Shown piece after piece: positions 27,898 through 37,950 of a DNA stretch of 64,000 bases (the stretch's first letter is position 1; every line of letters begins with the position of its first letter). Origin of the DNA: Gloeobacter violaceus PCC 7421 (GTDB lineage Bacteria > Cyanobacteriota > Cyanobacteriia > Gloeobacterales > Gloeobacteraceae); contig NC_005125.1 of NCBI RefSeq assembly GCF_000011385.1, positions 1,302,001 through 1,366,000 of the forward strand. The letters run 5' to 3'. The notes below the pieces were generated by a model. The model was not told where the DNA came from, searched no databases, and saw only the letters and a program-made list of their open reading frames with translations. The translations under genes and the position numbers were made by a program.

Positions 27898-29076
27898 TCA
27901 TATCCCCAGCGCCTCGCGGGCGGCGAGGGCACGCTCGTAGGCCACCGCCGGGTCGCGGGCGACGGCGGTGATGTGGCCGAGCTTGCGGCCGGGCCGGGCG
28001 CCGCGCTTGCCGTACCAATGCACTTTGACCCCAGCGAAGGCGAGGGCCGCCGCCAGATCGGGTTCGGCCTCAGGCGCGTCGCCTTCGGCCAGAATGTTCA
28101 CCATCACCGCCGCCGGACTGTGCATGGATGGGTCCGCCAGCGGCCAACCGAGCACGGCGCGCAGGTGCTGCTCGAACTGGCTGGTGGTGCAGGCGTCGAG
28201 GGTGTAATGGCCGGAGTTGTGGGGGCGGGGGGCCAGTTCATTGATGCTCACCTCCCCGCGGGCGTCCACAAACAGCTCGACACCGAAGATGCCCACTCCC
28301 TCGACCGCCTCGACGGCGGCGCGGGCAACCGCTCCGGCGCGCTCGCGGATCACTTCGTCCACTGGAGCCGGGGCGATCACAGTGTGGCAGACGTGCCGAC
28401 GCTGGCGCGTCTCGACCACCGGATAGGAGCGCACCTCGCCGGTTGAGGAGCGGGCCACCATCACCGCCAGTTCCCGTTCAAAAGTCACGAACGCTTCGAC
28501 CATAAGCGGTTGACCTGCGAGGGCCTCCCAGGCGTCCTCCAGGTGCGCGGGGTTCTCGACGATGCGCACGCCGTGACCGTCGTAGCCCTGAAGGCGGGTC
28601 TTGAGCACCAGCGGCCGGCTTCCTCCCCACGCCCGCACCGCCTCCAGACTCGGGGCGGCGGCGAAGCGCGGCACCGGCAATCCGGCCGCAGCCAGATGGG
28701 TGCGCTGGTGCAACTTGTCCTGGATGCGCGCGAGGGTCCGGCTGGCGGGCCAGACCCGGCAGCCATCCGCCTCCAGCTGGGCGACCAGCAGCGGCTCCAC
28801 CCACTCGTTTTCGAACGTGACGATGTCGGTGATCCTGGCCAGGGAGCGCAGGCTCTCGATGTCGTCGAACGCCCCCTCCAGTGAGACGGGCACCACCTGG
28901 GAGGCGGGGCTGGCCGGATCGGGGTCGAGCACCACCAGCCGCAATCCCAGGGCATGGCCCGCCAGGGCCATCATCCGGCCAAGCTGGCCGCCCCCGACAA
29001 TACCGACCGTCGGCAGGCCCGTCCGCCCTGCTGCCGGTCGCACAAGCTCCGCTTCCAGTGCCCCACTTCCCATCAT
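27898..29076 (-). CDS. purK: N5-carboxyaminoimidazole ribonucleotide synthase PurK
   Basis: The 392-residue ATP-grasp enzyme makes N5-CAIR from AIR, bicarbonate and ATP. It shows TVGIVGGGQLGRMMALAGHA at the N-terminus, LKTRLQGYDGHGVRI as the grasp loop, and NELAPRPHNSGHYTLDACTTS. The start was set at ATG 29076 (or the adjacent ATG 29073); the frame stays open to 29220, but that would add about 48 residues unlike PurK. It is transcribed divergently from the small coiled-coil membrane protein gene. Confidence 0.95.
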   Translation of the reverse strand: MMGSGALEAELVRPAAGRTGLPTVGIVGGGQLGRMMALAGHALGLRLVVLDPDPASPASQVVPVSLEGAFDDIESLRSLARITDIVTFENEWVEPLLVAQLEADGCRVWPASRTLARIQDKLHQRTHLAAAGLPVPRFAAAPSLEAVRAWGGSRPLVLKTRLQGYDGHGVRIVENPAHLEDAWEALAGQPLMVEAFVTFERELAVMVARSSTGEVRSYPVVETRQRRHVCHTVIAPAPVDEVIRERAGAVARAAVEAVEGVGIFGVELFVDARGEVSINELAPRPHNSGHYTLDACTTSQFEQHLRAVLGWPLADPSMHSPAAVMVNILAEGDAPEAEPDLAAALAFAGVKVHWYGKRGARPGRKLGHITAVARDPAVAYERALAAREALGI

Positions 29077-29189
29077 CACGTTGCGCAGATCAAAGATCTT
29101 TATCTTAATCGCAATCGGACACAGACCCTGGCGGTGGCGGACAGGACGGCCCCCTATACTGATAGAATCAGTAGCCCGGTTGGCACCCC

Positions 29190-29540
29190 ATGAAAGACAA
29201 ACTTCGCGAGTTCGCATCATTGGAGAAGGATGTGCGTGTGAAGGCCACCAGCACCATCTGGGGTTGCGCCACCGGCATGCTGGCTATCTGCATTCCGCTG
29301 GTCTCCATCGCCGGGGACGGCCCGGCCCTGTTGCTGCCCCTGGCGGTGGCGGTGGGTGCGGCGGTGGCCACCGCCTTTGTCTGGAAGTCGCAGCCGATCT
29401 CCGGCGGTGCGCAGACATCGCTGCCTTCTGCTTTGCGCCTGCGGCAACTCGAAGAACGCATCGCCAACCTGGAGACCATCGCCCTCAGTGGCGAAGAAGC
29501 GCTCAAAGCCCGCTACCGGCAACTCGAGAAAGCCGAGTGA
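29190..29540 (+). CDS. Small membrane protein with C-terminal coiled coil
   Basis: The 116-residue product has two hydrophobic segments (TIWGCATGMLAICIPLVSIA and ALLLPLAVAVGAAVATAFVW) followed by a charged coiled coil (LRLRQLEERIANLETIALSG, then EEALKARYRQLEKAE). This layout suggests a membrane-bound adaptor or assembly protein. No family could be assigned. It is divergent from purK, with 113 bp between starts. Confidence 0.65.
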   Translation: MKDKLREFASLEKDVRVKATSTIWGCATGMLAICIPLVSIAGDGPALLLPLAVAVGAAVATAFVWKSQPISGGAQTSLPSALRLRQLEERIANLETIALSGEEALKARYRQLEKAE

Positions 29541-29651
29541 GCCGCAGACGGTGAGAAGCTCCCAGCGCCAACCGCTTGCGCCATAGCGTAGGCTTTTCGT
29601 TTCTTGGGCTCGGTAACCCGGTCGCCTCTACGAGCTTGGATTGTGTCTAAC

Positions 29652-30236
29652 TCACCGCTGTGAGGGATCCCCCACGCGCTCCGCCAGATGATCAAAATAG
29701 GGGCCAAGCGCCTGCTGCTCGGCGACCGAAAAATGCTGCAAACTCGCCCCTCTAAGGCAGTGAATGCCCAGAAGCATCGCTCCAAGCGGCACTCGCAACT
29801 CCTGATACAACAGGTGCAGGTAGTGCACGCCTTCGGGGCTGGTGAAATTCGGACGGCGGGCGGCAATGCCGTAGGTAATCGAACGCAGAAAATGCCAGTA
29901 GTCGCGCCAGCAGGCTTCGGCGCGCACCGAAGGATAAAGATCGCCCCCAGGTTCGGTGATGCCGGGGAATTCCTCCAGCACCTGCGAGCGGGCCGCAGAG
30001 ACGATGGGCCTGGCACGGTCGCGCAAAAAACGCACCGTCTCCAGCGCAGGTGCCGCCTCCGGAAGCAGTACAGCCAGACGGTCCAGATCGGAGTCGGTGA
30101 GATAGCGGCTCTCGGCGTCGGCGGTGCGCAGCAGGGCGAGGGCCTCGGCGGGATAGGCACCCTGCCAATCGTCAAAACCCATGATTTTGGCTTTGGCGAT
30201 AAGGACTTTAACCTGATCACTCAATGGCGATTGCAT
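29652..30236 (-). CDS. Divergent phycobiliprotein-family protein
   Basis: The 194-residue protein has a globin-like phycobiliprotein fold. Its segment EACWRDYWHFLRSITYGIAA aligns with Apc[21 protein letters not shown], so the bilin Cys (about C109) and the Arg-Asp pair that hold the chromophore are kept. The N-terminus SRYLTDSDLDRLAVLLPEAA matches the family's first helices but is extended by about 25 residues. The Asn methylation site of beta subunits is not visible. It lies at the end of an operon with a HEAT-repeat protein and a small conserved protein. Possible roles are bilin carrier, assembly or degradation factor, or minor core subunit. Start ATG 30236 was chosen because family similarity begins soon after. 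Confidence 0.8.
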   Translation of the reverse strand: MQSPLSDQVKVLIAKAKIMGFDDWQGAYPAEALALLRTADAESRYLTDSDLDRLAVLLPEAAPALETVRFLRDRARPIVSAARSQVLEEFPGITEPGGDLYPSVRAEACWRDYWHFLRSITYGIAARRPNFTSPEGVHYLHLLYQELRVPLGAMLLGIHCLRGASLQHFSVAEQQALGPYFDHLAERVGDPSQR

Positions 30237-30258
30237 GGTCTCGCTCTCCAGAGGTTGT

Positions 30259-31131
30259 TCAAGCCATCGCCCGCTTTTGTAGCTGTGCAAGCGCCATGGC
30301 CACCACCCGCTGCAATTCGCCCGACTCGCGGGCCAGTTGGGCTTCAAGCGGCCCAAGGGAGGTCGGATCGCCAATCTTGGCCAGCGCCAGGGCAGCGGTT
30401 TTGCGCACCTCGGGGCTCGGGTCGGTCAGCTGTTCGATCAGCAACGGCACGGCCGGTTGGTGGGCCAGGGTGCCCAAGGCCGCCGCCGCCTCGGCCCGCA
30501 CCCCAGGGGCGCTGTCCGTGAGCGCCGATTCGAGCAAGGCGACGGCGCGATCGTCGGTCGTCTCCTGGGTGAGGTTGGCGACGGCGGCAACGACGGCGGT
30601 GCGTACGGCAGCGGCCGGGTGGGTGTAGGCGGTGTACAGGTGTTCGGCCACCTCGGTCCCCATAAAGGCGAGCGCCCAGGCAGCGTGGCCTTTGGCGGTC
30701 TCGGAGTGCTCGGAGGTGAGCAGGGCAATCAACTGCGGCACCGCCGCTTCGCCCATCTTGGCCAGGGCACCGGCGGCGGAACTGCGTACGACCGTGTCCT
30801 CGTCGTGCAGCAAAGCTTCGATCAACACGGGCACCGCCCGCGGGTCGCTGGTCTTGGCGAGCGCCTTGCCGCAGGAGCGGCGTACCACCGGGTTGGAGTG
30901 GCGGGATAAGCCCTCCAGCAGCATCGGCACCGCCGGCAGGCCAATCTTGCCGAACGCTTCCACCAGACCCAGACGCACCATGCCGCGGCTATCGGCCAGC
31001 GATGCGACCATCTGCCCCAAAAGGGCGGTGTCAGAAGTGTCGAAGGTGCCGATGGCCAGTAGGGCATTCACCCCATCGAGCAGTCGGTCGGTCGCCTCGG
31101 CGGTGGGCACCAACGGTTGCGGGTCGACCAT
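30259..31131 (-). CDS. HEAT-repeat protein of the CpcE/NblB lyase-like class
   Basis: The 290-residue protein is built of about eight HEAT/PBS-lyase repeats (for example NPVVRRSCGKALAKTSDPRA, EDTVVRSSAAGALAKMGEAA, SPEVRKTAALALAKIGDP). Members of this class attach bilins (CpcE/F, CpeY/Z), remove them, or steer phycobilisome breakdown (NblB). The gene sits two bases after a small conserved gene and 22 bp before the divergent phycobiliprotein, so the three are one operon. A chaperone or lyase for that phycobiliprotein is a natural inference. It lacks the paired partner typical of CpcE/F. Confidence 0.85.
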   Translation of the reverse strand: MVDPQPLVPTAEATDRLLDGVNALLAIGTFDTSDTALLGQMVASLADSRGMVRLGLVEAFGKIGLPAVPMLLEGLSRHSNPVVRRSCGKALAKTSDPRAVPVLIEALLHDEDTVVRSSAAGALAKMGEAAVPQLIALLTSEHSETAKGHAAWALAFMGTEVAEHLYTAYTHPAAAVRTAVVAAVANLTQETTDDRAVALLESALTDSAPGVRAEAAAALGTLAHQPAVPLLIEQLTDPSPEVRKTAALALAKIGDPTSLGPLEAQLARESGELQRVVAMALAQLQKRAMA

Positions 31132-31133
31132 GG

Positions 31134-31376
31134 CTACTCCGCCGTGGAGGCGGGCAGCGCGAACGGTTCGCCGGCACGCAGCGCTGTGAGCATCGCATCG
31201 ATGCGGTGAATCTCGGGATGCTTCTCCAGATGGCCCATCGTCACCTGTTTTGGCACCTTGGCCAGCTTGGCGATGTGCAGCGCGTCGTCGATGATCCGCC
31301 GGCGATACTGTTCCAGTTCGGCGATCACCGCTTCAATCTCTTGCTCGGAGGCGGGGGCGGCCGGTGGGTCAGACAT
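31134..31376 (-). CDS. Small conserved protein of the phycobiliprotein/HEAT operon
   Basis: The 80-residue product (SEQEIEAVIAELEQYRRRII, then DDALHIAKLAKVPKQVTMGH, EKHPEIHRID) is mainly helical, with a possible coiled coil at residues about 12-35, and no membrane segment. Start ATG 31376 (MSDPPAAP) is preferred to an upstream ATG at 31418. The stop lies two bases before the HEAT-repeat gene start, so translation is coupled. It looks like a conserved cyanobacterial protein of unknown function. Confidence 0.7.
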   Translation of the reverse strand: MSDPPAAPASEQEIEAVIAELEQYRRRIIDDALHIAKLAKVPKQVTMGHLEKHPEIHRIDAMLTALRAGEPFALPASTAE

Positions 31377-31479
31377 GCTTGCTCCTTGCGTCGTCACCAG
31401 CCATAGTAGCGCCCGCACCTATCTGTACCGGGAAGCAAATCATTGTTAAAAATGGTAAAAACTGCTACCGGATATACCC

Positions 31480-32133
31480 ATGGACATCGACGCGGTCCGC
31501 GAAGCTCTTGCAAGCGACAACCCGCAGGACCGCCTGCGGGGATTGACCCAGTTGCGCAACAGCGACCCCGAGACGGCGGTGCCGCTGTTGCTCGCCAAGC
31601 GGCGCGACCCCGAATTTATGGTGCGCTCGTTTGTGGCGATGGGACTCGGGCGGCACCGCACCGAGGAGTCCTTTGCAGCGCTGCTGGAATTGCTCAAAGG
31701 CGACGGGGACTATAACGTGCGCGCCGAGGCGGCCAATTCGCTGTCGATGTACGGCGAGAGCGCCCTGCTCCATCTGCTGGAAGCGTTTCGCTTCGACGAT
31801 CAATGGCTGGTGCGCCGCAGCATCCTGGCGGCGCTGATTGAATCGCCCCACACCGAAGCGCTTTACCAAATCTGCGTCCTCGCCCTCGAAGACGCCGACC
31901 TGACTGTGGTTGAAGCGGGAATCGACGGATTGGGGGCGCTCGGGCGTACCGAAAAGCGCGCCGAGGCGCTGGCGCTGCTGCTACCCAAGGTGGGAGACCA
32001 GGAGTGGCGCACGCGCTACCGTGTCGCCCGCGCCCTGCAACCCCACGCGGACGACCCGAGGGCGAAGGCGGCACTTGCCTACTTGGCGCGCGACGAGGAC
32101 CGGCGCGTTGCCACAGCGGCGGGTTCGCAGTAG
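31480..32133 (+). CDS. HEAT-repeat protein, NblB-like
   Basis: The 217-residue protein has about six HEAT repeats (LRGLTQLRNSDPETAVPLLL, PEFMVRSFVAMGLGRHRTEE, DYNVRAEAANSLSMYGESAL, DQWLVRRSILAALIESP). The pattern and length are close to NblB-class proteins, which help dismantle phycobilisomes or act on free phycobiliprotein. It is divergent from the three-gene operon to its left (103 bp apart) and convergent with the pentapeptide-repeat gene (four bases between stops). A lyase function is possible, but the shortness and the absence of a partner favour a binding role. Confidence 0.78.
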   Translation: MDIDAVREALASDNPQDRLRGLTQLRNSDPETAVPLLLAKRRDPEFMVRSFVAMGLGRHRTEESFAALLELLKGDGDYNVRAEAANSLSMYGESALLHLLEAFRFDDQWLVRRSILAALIESPHTEALYQICVLALEDADLTVVEAGIDGLGALGRTEKRAEALALLLPKVGDQEWRTRYRVARALQPHADDPRAKAALAYLARDEDRRVATAAGSQ

Positions 32134-32137
32134 AGGC

Positions 32138-32992
32138 TCAGCTTTCGAGGCTGGCGCGCGTCGTGGTGCGCGTAAACGGGTTCCAGGTGTCCAGTTCGCG
32201 GGCCGGGCGGGAAGTGAGGCGGGCTTTGGCCGCGTCGCTCAGACCGATGGAGCGACTGAAATCCGCCCCGGCAATGCTCGGGATGTCGTTGAGTTCGGTA
32301 CCGCGCAGATCGGCGGCACGCAAGTCCGCCATCTGCAATTCGGCGCCGTTGAGGCGCGCCTCGCGCAGATCCGCGCCGGTCAAAAAGGCTTTTTGCAGAT
32401 TCGAACCGCTGAGGATGGCGCCTTGCAACCTGGCGCCGCTCAGATCCGCGCCGCTGAGGTACGCGCCGCGCAGATTCGCGCCTTCGAGATCCGCCCCGCG
32501 CAAGTTGGCGGTGTTGAGATACGCTCCGCTCAGGTTGGCGCGCGGCCCGACCGCCCCCGAGGTGCGGTAGACAAACTCCTCCGGCCAGCGCGTGGCACCG
32601 TCGTACCAGGCGGCCTGCAACTGGGCGCCCTCCAGGCGGGCACCGACCAGGTCCGCTGCGCGCAAATCCGCCCGGTTGAGGCAACTGCGCTCCAGAGTGG
32701 TCCCCGACAGATCGGCGTGGGAGAGGTCCGCTCCGCGCAGGTCGGCACCCGCAAGCCGGGCGCCCTGCATCTGGGCGCCGCTCAAATCGGCACCGATGAG
32801 CACAGCACCGTCCAGGTTGGCTCCGCGCAGATCCGCCCCGGCAAAGTCCACCCGCTGGCCGTCCAGCCCGCTCAAATCCAGATTTTGCAGATCGGCCCCG
32901 CGCAGAGCGCCACCCGCGGCAATCCGGGCTTGGACAGCCTCACGGTCCGGCAATGCCGGTTGAGCAGGGGGAAGCGAGGAGGATTCGGCCAT
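32138..32992 (-). CDS. Pentapeptide-repeat protein
   Basis: Most of the 284 residues consist of A(D/N)LxG-type pentapeptides (GADLRGANLDGAVLIGADLS and similar), which fold into a right-handed beta helix. A break of about 30 residues (SWYDGATRWPEEFVYRTSGA-like) interrupts the helix in the middle. The C-terminus (SIGLSDAAKARLTSRPAREL) is different and the N-terminus is short. Such proteins are abundant in cyanobacteria; most have unknown function. Nothing here indicates a DNA-gyrase-protecting Qnr. Confidence 0.9.
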   Translation of the reverse strand: MAESSSLPPAQPALPDREAVQARIAAGGALRGADLQNLDLSGLDGQRVDFAGADLRGANLDGAVLIGADLSGAQMQGARLAGADLRGADLSHADLSGTTLERSCLNRADLRAADLVGARLEGAQLQAAWYDGATRWPEEFVYRTSGAVGPRANLSGAYLNTANLRGADLEGANLRGAYLSGADLSGARLQGAILSGSNLQKAFLTGADLREARLNGAELQMADLRAADLRGTELNDIPSIAGADFSRSIGLSDAAKARLTSRPARELDTWNPFTRTTTRASLES

Positions 32993-33138
32993 GGTGCGGT
33001 GCAGAAAAACCCATCGGAGTCATCGTAGCCTGGCGCCGTCGGTGGACACCCGCGGGCGGGTCCGCTACCATGGCGACCGGGCTGCCCAGGCGCCCGAGAA
33101 CCGCTTTTTTTGCCAGTGCAATGCGATTTTCTCCACCG

Positions 33139-33714
33139 ATGACGATGATGGATTTCTTTCGCAAAAGCGAAGGAACCTGGTTTACGCAGCGGACCGTGCA
33201 CCACTTCGACGCCGTCGCCGACGAATCGGGCGAGTCGAATTTGATCGTGCGGGTGCTCGAAGCGGACAACCCGCTCGTTCTGCAGGTGTGCGAAGCCCAG
33301 CGCATCGACCCGGCCCGGGCGCTTGGCGGGGCGGCCTTCACCTGGCAGGACAACCTGGAGACCGACGATCCCGGCCCGAACCGCGCCGCCGTCCTGGTGG
33401 ATTTACCCACCGACGCAAGCCGCCGCAGCGGTCGATTGCTGCGCAACCAGGGCTATGTCGAAAACATTCCGGTCGCGAGCCGCTACGCCTTTGCGCCCGA
33501 CGGTGTGCTCACCATCGACACCGAGTACGTCAACAACCAGGGCCAGGAGCGCTGCTGGTTCATCAGCGATCACTTTCGGATCCGGGTGAGCACCGTGCGC
33601 CTGATGGGCGGTGTCAACCTGATGACCTATTGTTCCGAACGCCGCTGCGTCCTGCCGGACAGCCTCGAAGCGCTGCGCAGCCGCCACGCTGCCGGGGTGG
33701 CCGCCCCCAGATAG
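33139..33714 (+). CDS. cpcS: Phycobiliprotein lyase of the CpcS/CpeS family
   Basis: The 191-residue protein is a CpcS-type bilin lyase: MMDFFRKSEGTWFTQRTVHH at the N-terminus, then GRLLRNQGYVENIPVASRYA and ERCWFISDHFRIRVSTVRLM, all typical of the lipocalin-like barrel that carries a bilin to Cys of phycobiliproteins. The start is ambiguous among ATG 33139, 33145 and 33148; a longer frame runs from 32953, but homologues start near MMDFF. CpcS and CpeS subtypes cannot be told apart here. It lies upstream of pebA, in the same direction. Confidence 0.9.
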   Translation: MTMMDFFRKSEGTWFTQRTVHHFDAVADESGESNLIVRVLEADNPLVLQVCEAQRIDPARALGGAAFTWQDNLETDDPGPNRAAVLVDLPTDASRRSGRLLRNQGYVENIPVASRYAFAPDGVLTIDTEYVNNQGQERCWFISDHFRIRVSTVRLMGGVNLMTYCSERRCVLPDSLEALRSRHAAGVAAPR

Positions 33715-33906
33715 ATTAGTATCGATTTATTTTGCATTGAGCGGGTGCTGAGCCCGGCAAATCTGCCCGATTGTATGGGCTAAGCCACCTCCGGCGCTCC
33801 TCCGGTAGCGTATTACGTATTGTTGCTTTCTTTCGCAATGGGCTGCCGCGCCCGGGGGCGCATTTTATGCTCTGGTAGAGAAAGCTTGGGGCGCAGTTGG
33901 CAAAAT

Positions 33907-34641
33907 ATGTATAGGCCGTTTCTTGAGCATTTGCAACAGAAATTGCAGTCGAGTTTCGATTTGCAATCCCTGACGATTCCGGCGGGACTAGACTATCGAA
34001 TCAGCGAGCGCGGCCGCGAGTCGACGACGATCCGCAGCTGGTGCTACACCTGCTCCGAGCTGCGCAAGATTCGCTACACCTACATCGACGGGGGCGAGCA
34101 CGCCCAGGTATTTAACAGCGTTATCTACCCAGCCCACCGCTACGACCTGCCCCTTCTGGGCATCGATTTGCTCGCGTTCGGCAAGAAGAAAAATCTGATC
34201 GTGCTCGACTTTCAGCCGCTGTTTCGCGACAAGGCGTACCTGGCGCGCTATATCGAGCCGATGCGGATCCTGCGGGAGCGCTACGGCGATGTGGCCCAGG
34301 ATGTCGAGATGAAGTTCTACGACGCCAATCAGTACTTCTCTAAGTACCTGCTCTTCGCGCGCACCGACGCTGAAACGGTGGCGGGCCGCGTGTTTACCGC
34401 CTACTGCGACTACTTGGATCTTTATTGGCAACTATTGGCTTCGGCGGCACCTTTGGGCGATGCGCAGGATATCCGGCGGATCGTCAAGGCCCAAAAAGAC
34501 TACGACCAGTACAGCGCCGATCGCGACCCCGCCTCGGGACTGTTCAGCAGCTATTTTGGCCACGAGTGGGCCGAGCGGTTCTTGTACGAATTTTTGTTCG
34601 AAGATGCGGTGCCGCTGGCGGTGGGCCAGCCCGGGCGATGA
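33907..34641 (+). CDS. pebA: 15,16-dihydrobiliverdin:ferredoxin oxidoreductase PebA
   Basis: The 244-residue ferredoxin-dependent bilin reductase makes 15,16-dihydrobiliverdin from biliverdin. It begins [14 protein letters not shown] and has the family segments [40 protein letters not shown] and [16 protein letters not shown] near the C-terminus. Its stop overlaps the pebB start as ATGA, so the two enzymes are made together; they pass the intermediate directly. Their presence shows that the organism makes phycoerythrobilin and so phycoerythrin. Confidence 0.95.
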
Positions 34642-35375
34642 CCCTGTACGAACCGTTTCTTGAGCGCGCCCAGCAAGTGCTCACCCGGCGGCTGGAACTG
34701 GCGCCCTATCCGATTCCGGTGGGTTTCGAGCGCAAGGAGGCGCTCGTGCGCGGCGAGGCGGTCGTGACCACGAGCACCGCCTGGCAATCGCCCAAGCTCC
34801 GGCAGATTCGCGCCGCCCACGTCCAGGGCGGTGGTGCGCTGCAGGTGCTCAACTTTGTCATCTCCCCCCGGCTGGAGTATGATTTGCCCTTCTTTGGGGC
34901 GGATCTGGTGACCCTGCCGGGAGGGCATCTGATTGCCCTCGACATGCAACCCTTGTTTCGCGACGACCCGGCCTACCAGGCAAAGTACACCGAGCCGATT
35001 GTGCCCCTGTTCGAAGCGCACCGCGCCCACCTCGAGTGGGGCGGTGACTTTCCGGAGGAGGCGCGGCCGTTTTTCTCGCCCGCCTTTTTGTGGACGCGCC
35101 CAAAGGAGACCGGCACCGTCGAGACGCGCGTGTTCGCGGCCTTCGTCGATTATCTGAACGCTTATCTGGACTTTGTCGAGCGCGCCGAACCTGTGACGCA
35201 CCCCGAGGGGCTCGCGGCCGTCGAGCGGGCCCAGCTACGCTATTTGCACTACCGGGCCGAAAAAGATCCGGCGCGGGGGATGTTTCGGCGCTTTTACGGA
35301 CCGGAGTGGACCGAGGAATATATCCACGGTTTTTTGTTCGATCTCGAACGCCGCCGGGAGGCTGTCCACCGTTAG
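34638..35375 (+). CDS. pebB: Phycoerythrobilin:ferredoxin oxidoreductase PebB
   Basis: The 245-residue bilin reductase completes the path from dihydrobiliverdin to phycoerythrobilin. It shows [40 protein letters not shown] and [15 protein letters not shown], and ends [20 protein letters not shown]. The ATG lies within the last codons of pebA. The longer open frame upstream of it overlaps pebA completely and is not coding. Confidence 0.95.
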
Positions 35376-35475: not shown

Positions 35476-37950
35476 ATGTCAACTGTCCTTGATGACCAAT
35501 CCAAGGCCTACGCCCCCGGTTCCGCGAACGGACCGACCGCCGGGCTGGAACCCTTCGTGCGCATGTCGCGGATGATCCGCTCCGGGGTGCCGGAGGATCG
35601 CGAGGAGCCCGACGAACTGTGGCTTTCGATGGTGCGCGATATCTTCGGCCGCGGTTACATGGACCGGCTGAGCCAGACGCGCGCTATCGACTACAGTGCG
35701 TTTGTGCGCCCCGCCGATCAGGCGACCGCCGACGGGGCCGCCCAGACCAAATTGGGGATCACCGCGATTGCCCCGGATCAAGGCGTCGAGTTGCGCCCGA
35801 ATTTTACCGAAGCCGATGTGATAACGGTAATCCGCGCCGCCTACAAACAGCTTTTCGGCAATACCTACATTCTCGAGTCCGAGCGGGTCATCCAGGCAGA
35901 GTCGCTGTTGCGCAACGGCTCGATTAGCGTTCGCGAATTTATCCGGATCCTGGCCAAGTCGGATCTGTACAAGGAGCGCTTCTTCCGCTGCACGTCAAAC
36001 AACCGCTTCATCGAGCTGAACCTCAAGCATCTGTTGGGCCGCGCTCCCTACAACCAGGGCGAAATCGCCGAGCACCTCGATCGCTACTGCCAGTCGGGCT
36101 ATGACGCAGAAATCGATTCTTACATCGACTCCGACGAGTACCGGCGGGTGTTTGGCGAAAATACCGTGCCTTACTTCCGCGGCTTCAAGTACCAGGTCGG
36201 TCAGTCCGCCGCCGCCTTCGAGCGCATGCGCGCCCTCTACAGCGGCGATGCCGGCAGCGACACCGACCGCAACCAGAACGGCCAGCGCACCGAACTGACC
36301 TCCGGGCTCGCCGATCCGGCTCAGCCCGTGCGCGCGCGCACGGACTACGCCCTCACCCGCGTCGATATTCCGGGGGGTAACGGTGCGGCCGGTAGGCTCG
36401 CTGCTCTCGACGAGAGCCTGGGCAGTTGGCTCGATGCCGCCCGCGACCTGATTTCCCAGAACGACTACAGCCAGAAGGCGATCGAAGTCGAGCCGAAGCG
36501 GGTGGCACCCTACGCGCAGTATCTGACCCCCGCCGTCGAAGCCACCCCTGACGCCGCCGCCCAGACGAAGCTCGGCATTACCGCCGTCGCTCCCGACCAG
36601 GCGGTCGAGTTGCGCCCCAACTTCGGCGAAGCCGAGGTGCAGGCAGTGATCCGCGCCGCCTACAAGCAGATCTTCGGCAACACCTATATCCTCGAAGCGG
36701 ACCGGGTGGTGATTGCAGAATCGCTGTTGCGCAACGGTTCGATTAGTGTCCGTGAGTTCGTGCGATTGCTGGCCAAGTCGGATCTGTACAGGGACCGTTT
36801 CTTCCGCACCGCCTCCAACAACCGCTTCATCGAACTGAACTTCAAACATTTCCTGGGCCGCGCTCCCTACAGCCAGGCGGAAATCGGCGAACACTTCAAC
36901 CGCTATCACAAGTCGGGTTACGACGCGGAGATCGATTCTTACATCGACTCCGACGAGTACCGGCGGGTGTTTGGCGAAAATACCGTGCCTTACTTCCGCG
37001 GCTTCAAGTACCAGGTCGGCCAAGCCGCCCGGGGCTTCGACCAGATGCAGCAGCTGTTTGCCGGGGATGCCGGCAGCGACACCGACCGGGGTATCGGCGC
37101 CCAACCTGCCGCCAAGCTCACGTTTCCCCTCTCGCGGCCGCTCGGGGTGACCTCGGCCTACTTCCCGTCCTCCCAGGGCGGGGCTGCCACCAGCGACGGA
37201 TTGGAGATGTTCACCCGCATGGCCCGGGAGTTGACCGTCACCCCCGTCTCTGCCCGCAGGACGACGTCCCCCACCGCCCCCACCGCCCCGGCGATGCCGC
37301 TGGCGGGCTACTACAGCCGTCCCGCCCCCCGGGCGACCGCCGACGGGGACGCCCAGACGAAGCTCGGCATCACGGCGGTGGCCCCCGCCCAGGCGGTGGA
37401 GTTGCGCCCCAATTTCGGCGAGACCGAGTTGCAGGCAGTGATCCGCGCCACCTACAAGCAACTGTTCGGCAACACCTACATCCTCGAAGCCGATCGGGTG
37501 GTGCAGGCAGAATCGCTCTTGCGCAACGGTTCGATCAACGTGCGCGAATTTGTGCGGTTACTGGCCAAGTCCGAACTGTACAAGGAGCGCTTCTTCCACT
37601 GCACCTCCAACAACCGCTTCATCGAACTCACCTTCAAGCACCTGTTGGGCCGCGCCCCCTACAACCAGTCGGAGTTTGTCGAGCACCTCGACCGCTACCA
37701 GAAATCCGGCTACGACGCGGAGATCGATTCTTACATCGACAGTGATGAGTACCGGCGGGTGTTTGGCGAAAATACCGTGCCCTACTTCCGCGGCTTCAAG
37801 TACCAGACCGGTCAGGCCGCCGGGGTCTTCGAGCGCACCCTCAAGCTCTACGGCGGCGATGCCGACAGCGATACCAATCGCAATCGGCAGGGCCAGCTGC
37901 GCCAGGTAGACCCCCAGGAACTGCTGCGCTCAGGTCGCGGTATCGTATAG
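35476..37950 (+). CDS. Giant phycobilisome rod linker with three linker domains
   Basis: The 824-residue protein holds three PBS-linker domains (about residues 110-280, 356-540, 619-802), each starting AQTKLGITA...VELRPNF and containing the core SLLRNGSISVREF, FIELNLKHLLGRAPYNQ (and variants) and DEYRRVFGENTVPYFRGFKY. An unusual N-terminal region (about 1-85) and Pro/Ala-rich connectors separate them. There is no CpcD domain. Gloeobacter phycobilisomes are known to contain such large multi-domain linkers instead of CpcG. Three domains on one chain could hold three rod discs in line or attach several rods to the core. It heads the linker operon and has AGGGAG before the ATG. Confidence 0.93.
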   Translation: MSTVLDDQSKAYAPGSANGPTAGLEPFVRMSRMIRSGVPEDREEPDELWLSMVRDIFGRGYMDRLSQTRAIDYSAFVRPADQATADGAAQTKLGITAIAPDQGVELRPNFTEADVITVIRAAYKQLFGNTYILESERVIQAESLLRNGSISVREFIRILAKSDLYKERFFRCTSNNRFIELNLKHLLGRAPYNQGEIAEHLDRYCQSGYDAEIDSYIDSDEYRRVFGENTVPYFRGFKYQVGQSAAAFERMRALYSGDAGSDTDRNQNGQRTELTSGLADPAQPVRARTDYALTRVDIPGGNGAAGRLAALDESLGSWLDAARDLISQNDYSQKAIEVEPKRVAPYAQYLTPAVEATPDAAAQTKLGITAVAPDQAVELRPNFGEAEVQAVIRAAYKQIFGNTYILEADRVVIAESLLRNGSISVREFVRLLAKSDLYRDRFFRTASNNRFIELNFKHFLGRAPYSQAEIGEHFNRYHKSGYDAEIDSYIDSDEYRRVFGENTVPYFRGFKYQVGQAARGFDQMQQLFAGDAGSDTDRGIGAQPAAKLTFPLSRPLGVTSAYFPSSQGGAATSDGLEMFTRMARELTVTPVSARRTTSPTAPTAPAMPLAGYYSRPAPRATADGDAQTKLGITAVAPAQAVELRPNFGETELQAVIRATYKQLFGNTYILEADRVVQAESLLRNGSINVREFVRLLAKSELYKERFFHCTSNNRFIELTFKHLLGRAPYNQSEFVEHLDRYQKSGYDAEIDSYIDSDEYRRVFGENTVPYFRGFKYQTGQAAGVFERTLKLYGGDADSDTNRNRQGQLRQVDPQELLRSGRGIV

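Follow-up and report, generated by a model that had tools for sequence, protein, structure and literature searches.

To our knowledge, AplA has been a named protein for two decades without an assigned job. Members of this phycobiliprotein class, described by Montgomery et al. in 2004, reportedly carry a 28-residue extension, keep the bilin-binding residues and are excluded from phycobilisomes. According to the parts of Six et al. (2007, PMC2246261) available to us, aplA lies upstream of cpcGII, with the pentapeptide gene unk5 nearby. A second described group, the CpeF-MpeV-MpeU family, is stated in the available portion of PMC7948978 to occur in freshwater and marine strains containing phycoerythrin (PE); it describes CpeF and MpeV as the lyases that attach the doubly linked bilin of beta-PE at Cys50/Cys61, and CpeZ as a chaperone for CpeB. 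Excerpts of two further papers report that the PE of Gloeobacter violaceus carries phycourobilin (PUB) tethered to two cysteines (PMC12525769) and that His141 blocks isomerisation by MpeV (PMC9705338).

The locus analyzed here brings relatives of these systems together. We consider it likely to be a PE operon carrying AplA, that is, a conserved PE-linked set that includes a HEAT-repeat protein of the beta-PE lyase type (HEATa) and a small protein linked to AplA. AplA, CpeF-type lyases and Unk13 are already known by name, and it is the links between them that are new. In the part of the literature that was searched, we found no statement of a phylum-wide tie between AplA and PE, of a fusion of the small protein to AplA, or of a Gloeobacter lyase-isomerase.

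Layout of the locus

Three open reading frames occupy positions 29652-31376 of the window (the whole 64,000-nucleotide stretch of G. violaceus PCC 7421 DNA that was analyzed), where an earlier, sequence-only reading had placed them, and their coordinates were confirmed. On the minus strand, the gaps calculated from these coordinates are 2 bases between the small gene and HEATa, as that reading had stated, and 22 bases between HEATa and aplA. The length of aplA is counted from an ATG. HEATa, a HEAT-repeat protein of the E/F type, matched the Pfam family HEAT_2 (E 6.6e-62), and the small protein matched no Pfam family above cut-off. Conservation of the operon, which had been proposed as a check, was found in three other genomes of the genus (loci L044, L183 and L184), where the three genes recur in unchanged order.

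Genes for a CpeS-like bilin lyase, PebA, PebB and the Glr1262 linker are found nearby (Table 1), and the operon therefore belongs to a PE neighbourhood, which the earlier reading had missed. An Rfam search of positions 28500-34000 returned no family, and no sigma-70-like promoter was found when looked for at the locus. Terminator-like sites numbered 6, compared with 2.0 (sd 1.8) in shuffled sequences, and several of them fall inside genes.

In the relatives L184, L183 and L044, a CpeT-CpeS-cpeBA-cpeYZ-cpeR block directly follows aplA. The G. violaceus block lies about 61 kb from aplA with its relative orientation unchanged (G000:C1 1270264-1331655; window positions 1-29651 and upstream), as if a segment with apcE-apcAB had been inserted between the two. 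Additionally, cpcBA-like genes occur in duplicate with identical scores at G000:C1 3424755-3425794 and 1263334-1264373.

Table 1. Genes of the aplA locus, in window coordinates.
Feature	Coordinates	Strand	Evidence
aplA, assigned as a 194-aa non-antenna phycobiliprotein	29652..30236	-	PF00502 E 8.6e-46; 28-aa extension; C109-x-R111-D112; AplA clade 100/100; AF2 pLDDT 94.4
HEATa, 290 aa, putative CpeF/MpeV-type beta-PE bilin lyase, predicted lyase-isomerase	30259..31131	-	CpeB co-occurrence; marine synteny; PMC7948978 (available portion)
Small helical protein, 80 aa, Unk13-like by position	31134..31376	-	Adjacency to HEATa; AplA fusion; cpeB neighbour in marine genomes
HEATb, 217 aa, NblB-like HEAT protein, divergent from the operon	31480..32133	+	61/80 AplA loci; NblB model 101 bits, cut-off 300
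Pentapeptide-repeat protein, Unk5-like by position	32138..32992	-	PF00805; 34/80 loci
CpeS-like bilin lyase, start uncertain	33085..33714	+	PF09367 E 4.4e-62
pebA	33907..34641	+	NF009720 377 bits, above cut-off 263
pebB, start uncertain	34668..35375	+	Second bilin reductase of the pair; groups with pebA relatives, beside pebA in related loci
Glr1262 linker gene, adjoins pebB	35476..37950	+	PDB chain 9k9w_a9 'Glr1262 protein', residues 1-824 of 824

The biliprotein and its tie to phycoerythrin

The phycobiliprotein was aligned with ApcA, ApcB, ApcD, ApcF, CpcA, CpcB, CpeA and CpeB of its own genome, where the ApcD and ApcF labels were assigned by similarity and place in the tree. In this alignment, 28 residues precede Met1 of ApcA, the bilin cysteine C109 is retained together with Arg111 and Asp112, and an Asp stands where ApcA, ApcB and ApcF carry the Asn of 'PGGN' (many relatives have Gly). 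The bilin Cys, the Arg-Asp pair, the N-terminal extension and the lack of an obvious beta-type Asn had all been noted previously and were borne out. The protein matches six phycobiliprotein subunit models, every one far below its cut-off, and its closest PDB sequence is ApcA at 74.6 bits.

Proteins of the same family, 45-55% identical to it, are encoded by 34 of the 386 genomes sampled across the phylum, a count that includes its own genome (E <= 1.4e-46). Across 49 family rows, 17 columns are invariant, including C109, W110, R111, D112, R118 and Y122, and D40 is kept in 90% or more; in the protein of the Gloeobacter-family genome G390, which lies outside the 49 rows, Leu replaces W110. In a tree of 78 phycobiliproteins, all 17 AplA rows fall on one branch with a support of 100/100, and G036 and marine-type genomes contribute 7 members to this clade. 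The marine members, named by genomic place, adjoin a pentapeptide gene and linker genes and are filed as AplA because that place is the one given for aplA in the available parts of PMC2246261. A divergent core subunit of the ApcD or ApcF kind was considered and rejected, as both are encoded elsewhere in the genome and the protein branches outside all canonical subunits. From its features, place and co-occurrence, we assign the G. violaceus phycobiliprotein to AplA, the described non-antenna class, and with this assignment the suggestion that it is a minor biliprotein distinct from those of apc and cpc was upheld.

The phycobilisome of G. violaceus has been solved, and Glr1262 and ApcA of the window match its chains, with ApcA identical over 155 residues to the allophycocyanin of 9v7j (the PCC 7421 phycobilisome core). 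AplA, though, is not among the PDB chains (best match 75 bits), nor was it found by a text search of the available parts of PMC12525769. The AF2 model of AplA aligned with a G. violaceus core chain at a VIA Z of 16.9 (rmsd 4.0, 145 aligned). In comparisons made with no control model, the whole structure gave Foldseek rmsd values of mostly 8.2-8.9 over about 155-170 columns against canonical chains, residues 58-189 fitted 2vjt_A at 2.1 A over 131 residues (VIA), and the N-terminal arm fitted canonical chains worse than the globin core did. The bilin-binding signature, taken together with the absence of AplA from the chains of the solved phycobilisome, suggests that the protein most probably carries its bilin in soluble form and works by way of partner proteins.

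Co-occurrence with PE was assessed in 79 genomes, one per genus (the first listed), drawn from 167 with a phycobiliprotein match; six genera with a single weak match, read as Prochlorococcus-like, were left out. PE was called when CpeB scored above its curated cut-off, which was the case in 20 of the 79 genera, and AplA was called at 131 bits or more, the next best match being 113.5 bits and lacking the extension. By these measures AplA is present in 18 of the 20 PE genera and in 1 of the 59 others, and the HEATa family in 20 of 20 and 0 of 59, with Fisher p values that take genera as independent and ignore shared descent. Exceptions were found in both directions: PE genomes G091 and G300 have HEATa without AplA, and G036 and G390 have AplA with neither PE nor HEATa. 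AplA is thus tied to PE, and it is neither needed by PE nor dependent on it. Within the Gloeobacter family (6 genomes), AplA was found in 5 members and both HEATa and CpeB above cut-off in 4; in G390, aplA lies beside unrelated genes.

Genomic neighbours of aplA were compared in the named loci, which are the best 80 of 260 by AplA similarity and in which genera such as Okeania, Moorena and Nostoc recur. A conserved protein of about 140-158 aa is encoded in 23 of these 80 loci (e.g., L045:7477-7950) and also near cpeA in marine genomes; it is perhaps Unk12/orf140. Eight of the 80 loci (L046, L049, L053 and L108 among them) hold a low-identity match resembling a bilin reductase, mostly 27-29% identical to PebB, and six of these eight matches lie within 2 kb of aplA.

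The HEAT proteins and the small protein

HEATa follows PE closely. The PE genera span 11 families, 9 of which also contain PE-negative genera, and within each of these 9 the presence of HEATa tracks PE. Its relatives are mostly 290-307 aa long, and in marine genomes the gene either adjoins cpeBA or is flanked by cpeY and cpeZ. Judging by features, range, size, place and co-occurrence, HEATa looks like a lyase of beta-PE of the CpeF/MpeU/MpeV type. The alternative that it belongs to the NblB class of turnover factors, as had been suggested from the sequence, was dropped, since HEATa scored 71.9 bits against the NblB model NF045915, below the cut-off of 300.

Only one HEATa-type gene was found in the G. 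violaceus genome (E <= 1e-25). Since the PE of this organism carries a doubly tethered PUB (PMC12525769, in its available parts), this single family member is predicted to be a lyase-isomerase converting phycoerythrobilin to phycourobilin. In the alignment, CpeB of G. violaceus has C50, D54 and C61, and carries Phe rather than His at position 141. Among CpeB matches of at least 60% identity within the named loci, position 141 is His in 8 of 15 and Phe in 7 of 15; in marine genomes it is Leu in G139 and G201 and His in G239. Counting against the model is CpeB of G386, a member of the genus (L183:3145-3696), which has Asn in place of Cys61 in the alignment, in a genome that does encode HEATa.

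Every one of the 20 PE genera has a member of the small protein family, as do three PE-less genera of family f12. In these three (L172, L173 and L174), the gene has cpcBA and genes for CpeS-type lyases in its vicinity. Most members that are not fused have 71-92 aa. The small gene and HEATa occur together in 29 of the 80 named loci, 28 of which have the small gene directly before HEATa on the same strand, with gaps of up to 287 bases. In marine genomes (L150, L152 and L154), the small gene has cpeB on one side and the CpeS-pebAB genes on the other and encodes proteins 30-39% identical to that of G. violaceus, and from this genomic position we take the small protein to be Unk13-like. Unk4 was also considered and set aside, because the small gene family adjoins cpeB, and in L155 it is an unrelated 143-aa frame that precedes aplA.

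In 5 of the 80 loci (four Okeania records and Candidatus Paraprochloron terpiosi), an in-frame fusion joins the small protein to the N-terminal end of AplA. There is no start codon at the fusion junctions of L063 and L105, and the junctions differ between the two fusion lineages, so two fusion events are likely. The fused protein of L065 was modelled with overall scores of pLDDT 87.8 and pTM 0.76. The fusion makes the small protein the best candidate for a partner of AplA.

A second HEAT protein, HEATb, is encoded in 61 of the 80 AplA loci (identity at least 42%) at a median distance of 334 bp, measured between match ends rather than gene ends, and in 49 cases it lies upstream on the opposite strand. 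It is this gene at 31480-32133, outside the stretch covered by the earlier reading, that is the NblB-like neighbour of AplA. Full-length alignments of HEATb proteins with the NblB model score 95.9-109 bits (101 for G. violaceus), also below the cut-off of 300. Close HEATb relatives (E < 1e-40) were detected in 14 of the 19 genomes with AplA and in 6 of the 60 others. In one genome (G002), which lacks AplA, HEATa and a CpeB above cut-off, HEATb adjoins a strongly divergent, long-branched CpeB/CpeA-like pair (L167:3650-5308).

Proposed role, alternatives and comparison with known systems

The data fit best with AplA being a soluble bilin-bearing accessory of the PE system, and not an antenna subunit. 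In the mechanism we propose, HEATa would link a single bilin to CpeB through two cysteines, Cys50 and Cys61, and the G. violaceus enzyme would also isomerise phycoerythrobilin to phycourobilin during attachment. AplA would receive its own bilin at Cys109, probably via a CpeS-type lyase, would stay outside the finished phycobilisome, and would work through protein partners, namely the small protein and perhaps HEATb. What AplA does in this arrangement is a tentative guess: it may be a bilin- or light-responsive accessory that couples the production or assembly of PE to bilin supply or light. It is also conceivable, at about the same low level of confidence, that AplA and the small protein form one complex serving PE biogenesis or light control with HEATa, and that HEATa of G. 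violaceus is a PUB lyase-isomerase outside the marine MpeV/MpeU group.

Amongst the alternatives, AplA could act as a pseudo-alpha subunit that forms a short-lived pair with immature CpeB, keeps it in place for HEATa and leaves before the rod is assembled. AplA is alpha-like, with ApcA as its best PDB match, and it retains residues at phycobiliprotein positions 13, 93 and 97 (Asp, Arg and Tyr), which we take to be alpha-beta contacts, as the conserved D40 and the invariant R118 and Y122. Its operon and fusion ties to HEATa and the small protein, and its linkage to PE, are also consistent with such a role. Nevertheless, we regard this as rather unlikely, as AplA persists without CpeB in G036 and G390, PE genomes G091 and G300 do without it, and the available portion of PMC7948978 already assigns the chaperoning of CpeB to CpeZ. 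The persistence of AplA in the two PE-less genomes G036 and G390 would speak more for a sensing or regulatory role than for one of chaperoning PE alone.

A turnover set, in which the NblB relative HEATb strips bilins from PE or phycobilisomes and AplA receives them, appears improbable. The frequency of HEATb in AplA loci, its full-length alignment with the NblB model and its position beside a PE-like gene pair in G002 are in line with this explanation; its scores, however, are far under the NblB cut-off, and 5 of the 19 AplA genomes have no close HEATb. Least credible of all, and very improbable in our view, is a dedicated chromoprotein that receives its bilin from the adjacent HEAT protein, which is how the locus had first been read. 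The short gaps of the operon and the position of HEATa immediately before aplA in 8 of the 80 loci speak for it, but the distribution of HEATa follows CpeB and not AplA in all four exceptional genomes, and the idea of HEATa as a private lyase of AplA was given up. Altogether, a minor biliprotein in an operon conserved in the genus survives from that first account, and its own lyase and the NblB class do not.

For the preferred reading of AplA as a soluble PE accessory, the tie to PE, the fusion with the small partner and the two natural exceptions each way provide concrete handles on its role. With the prediction for HEATa, the doubly linked phycourobilin of G. violaceus, which lacks thylakoids, gains a candidate gene, and His, Phe or Leu at position 141 of CpeB offers a sequence test for PEs carrying this chromophore. 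If these proposals are true, the orphan photoreceptor AplA would be a dedicated PE accessory, and doubly linked phycourobilin chemistry would be present at the base of the cyanobacteria.

Compared with described systems, HEATa resembles CpeF, MpeV and MpeU in its HEAT repeats, its length of about 300 aa, its restriction to PE genomes and its cpe/mpe neighbours in marine genomes. It differs from freshwater CpeF in its product, as CpeF is reported in the available sources to attach phycoerythrobilin and the predicted product of the G. violaceus protein is doubly linked phycourobilin. HEATb aligns with NblB (NF045915) over its full length, yet stays under the cut-off and has aplA as its usual genomic neighbour. 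The small protein is like Unk13 of marine Synechococcus (PMC2246261, in its available parts), inferred from its place, in being encoded by a short conserved gene beside cpeB in the PE region; outside the picocyanobacteria, in contrast, the gene precedes HEATa, and two lineages have fused it to AplA. AplA itself agrees with its class in the ApcA-like sequence, the 28-residue extension, the retained bilin Cys, the absence from the chains of the solved phycobilisome and the correspondence to the aplA locus of marine Synechococcus. It departs from the available account in PMC2246261 in the phylum-wide tie to PE and the fusion with the small protein, both absent there, and in G. violaceus aplA shares an operon with the genes for a beta-PE-type lyase and the small protein.
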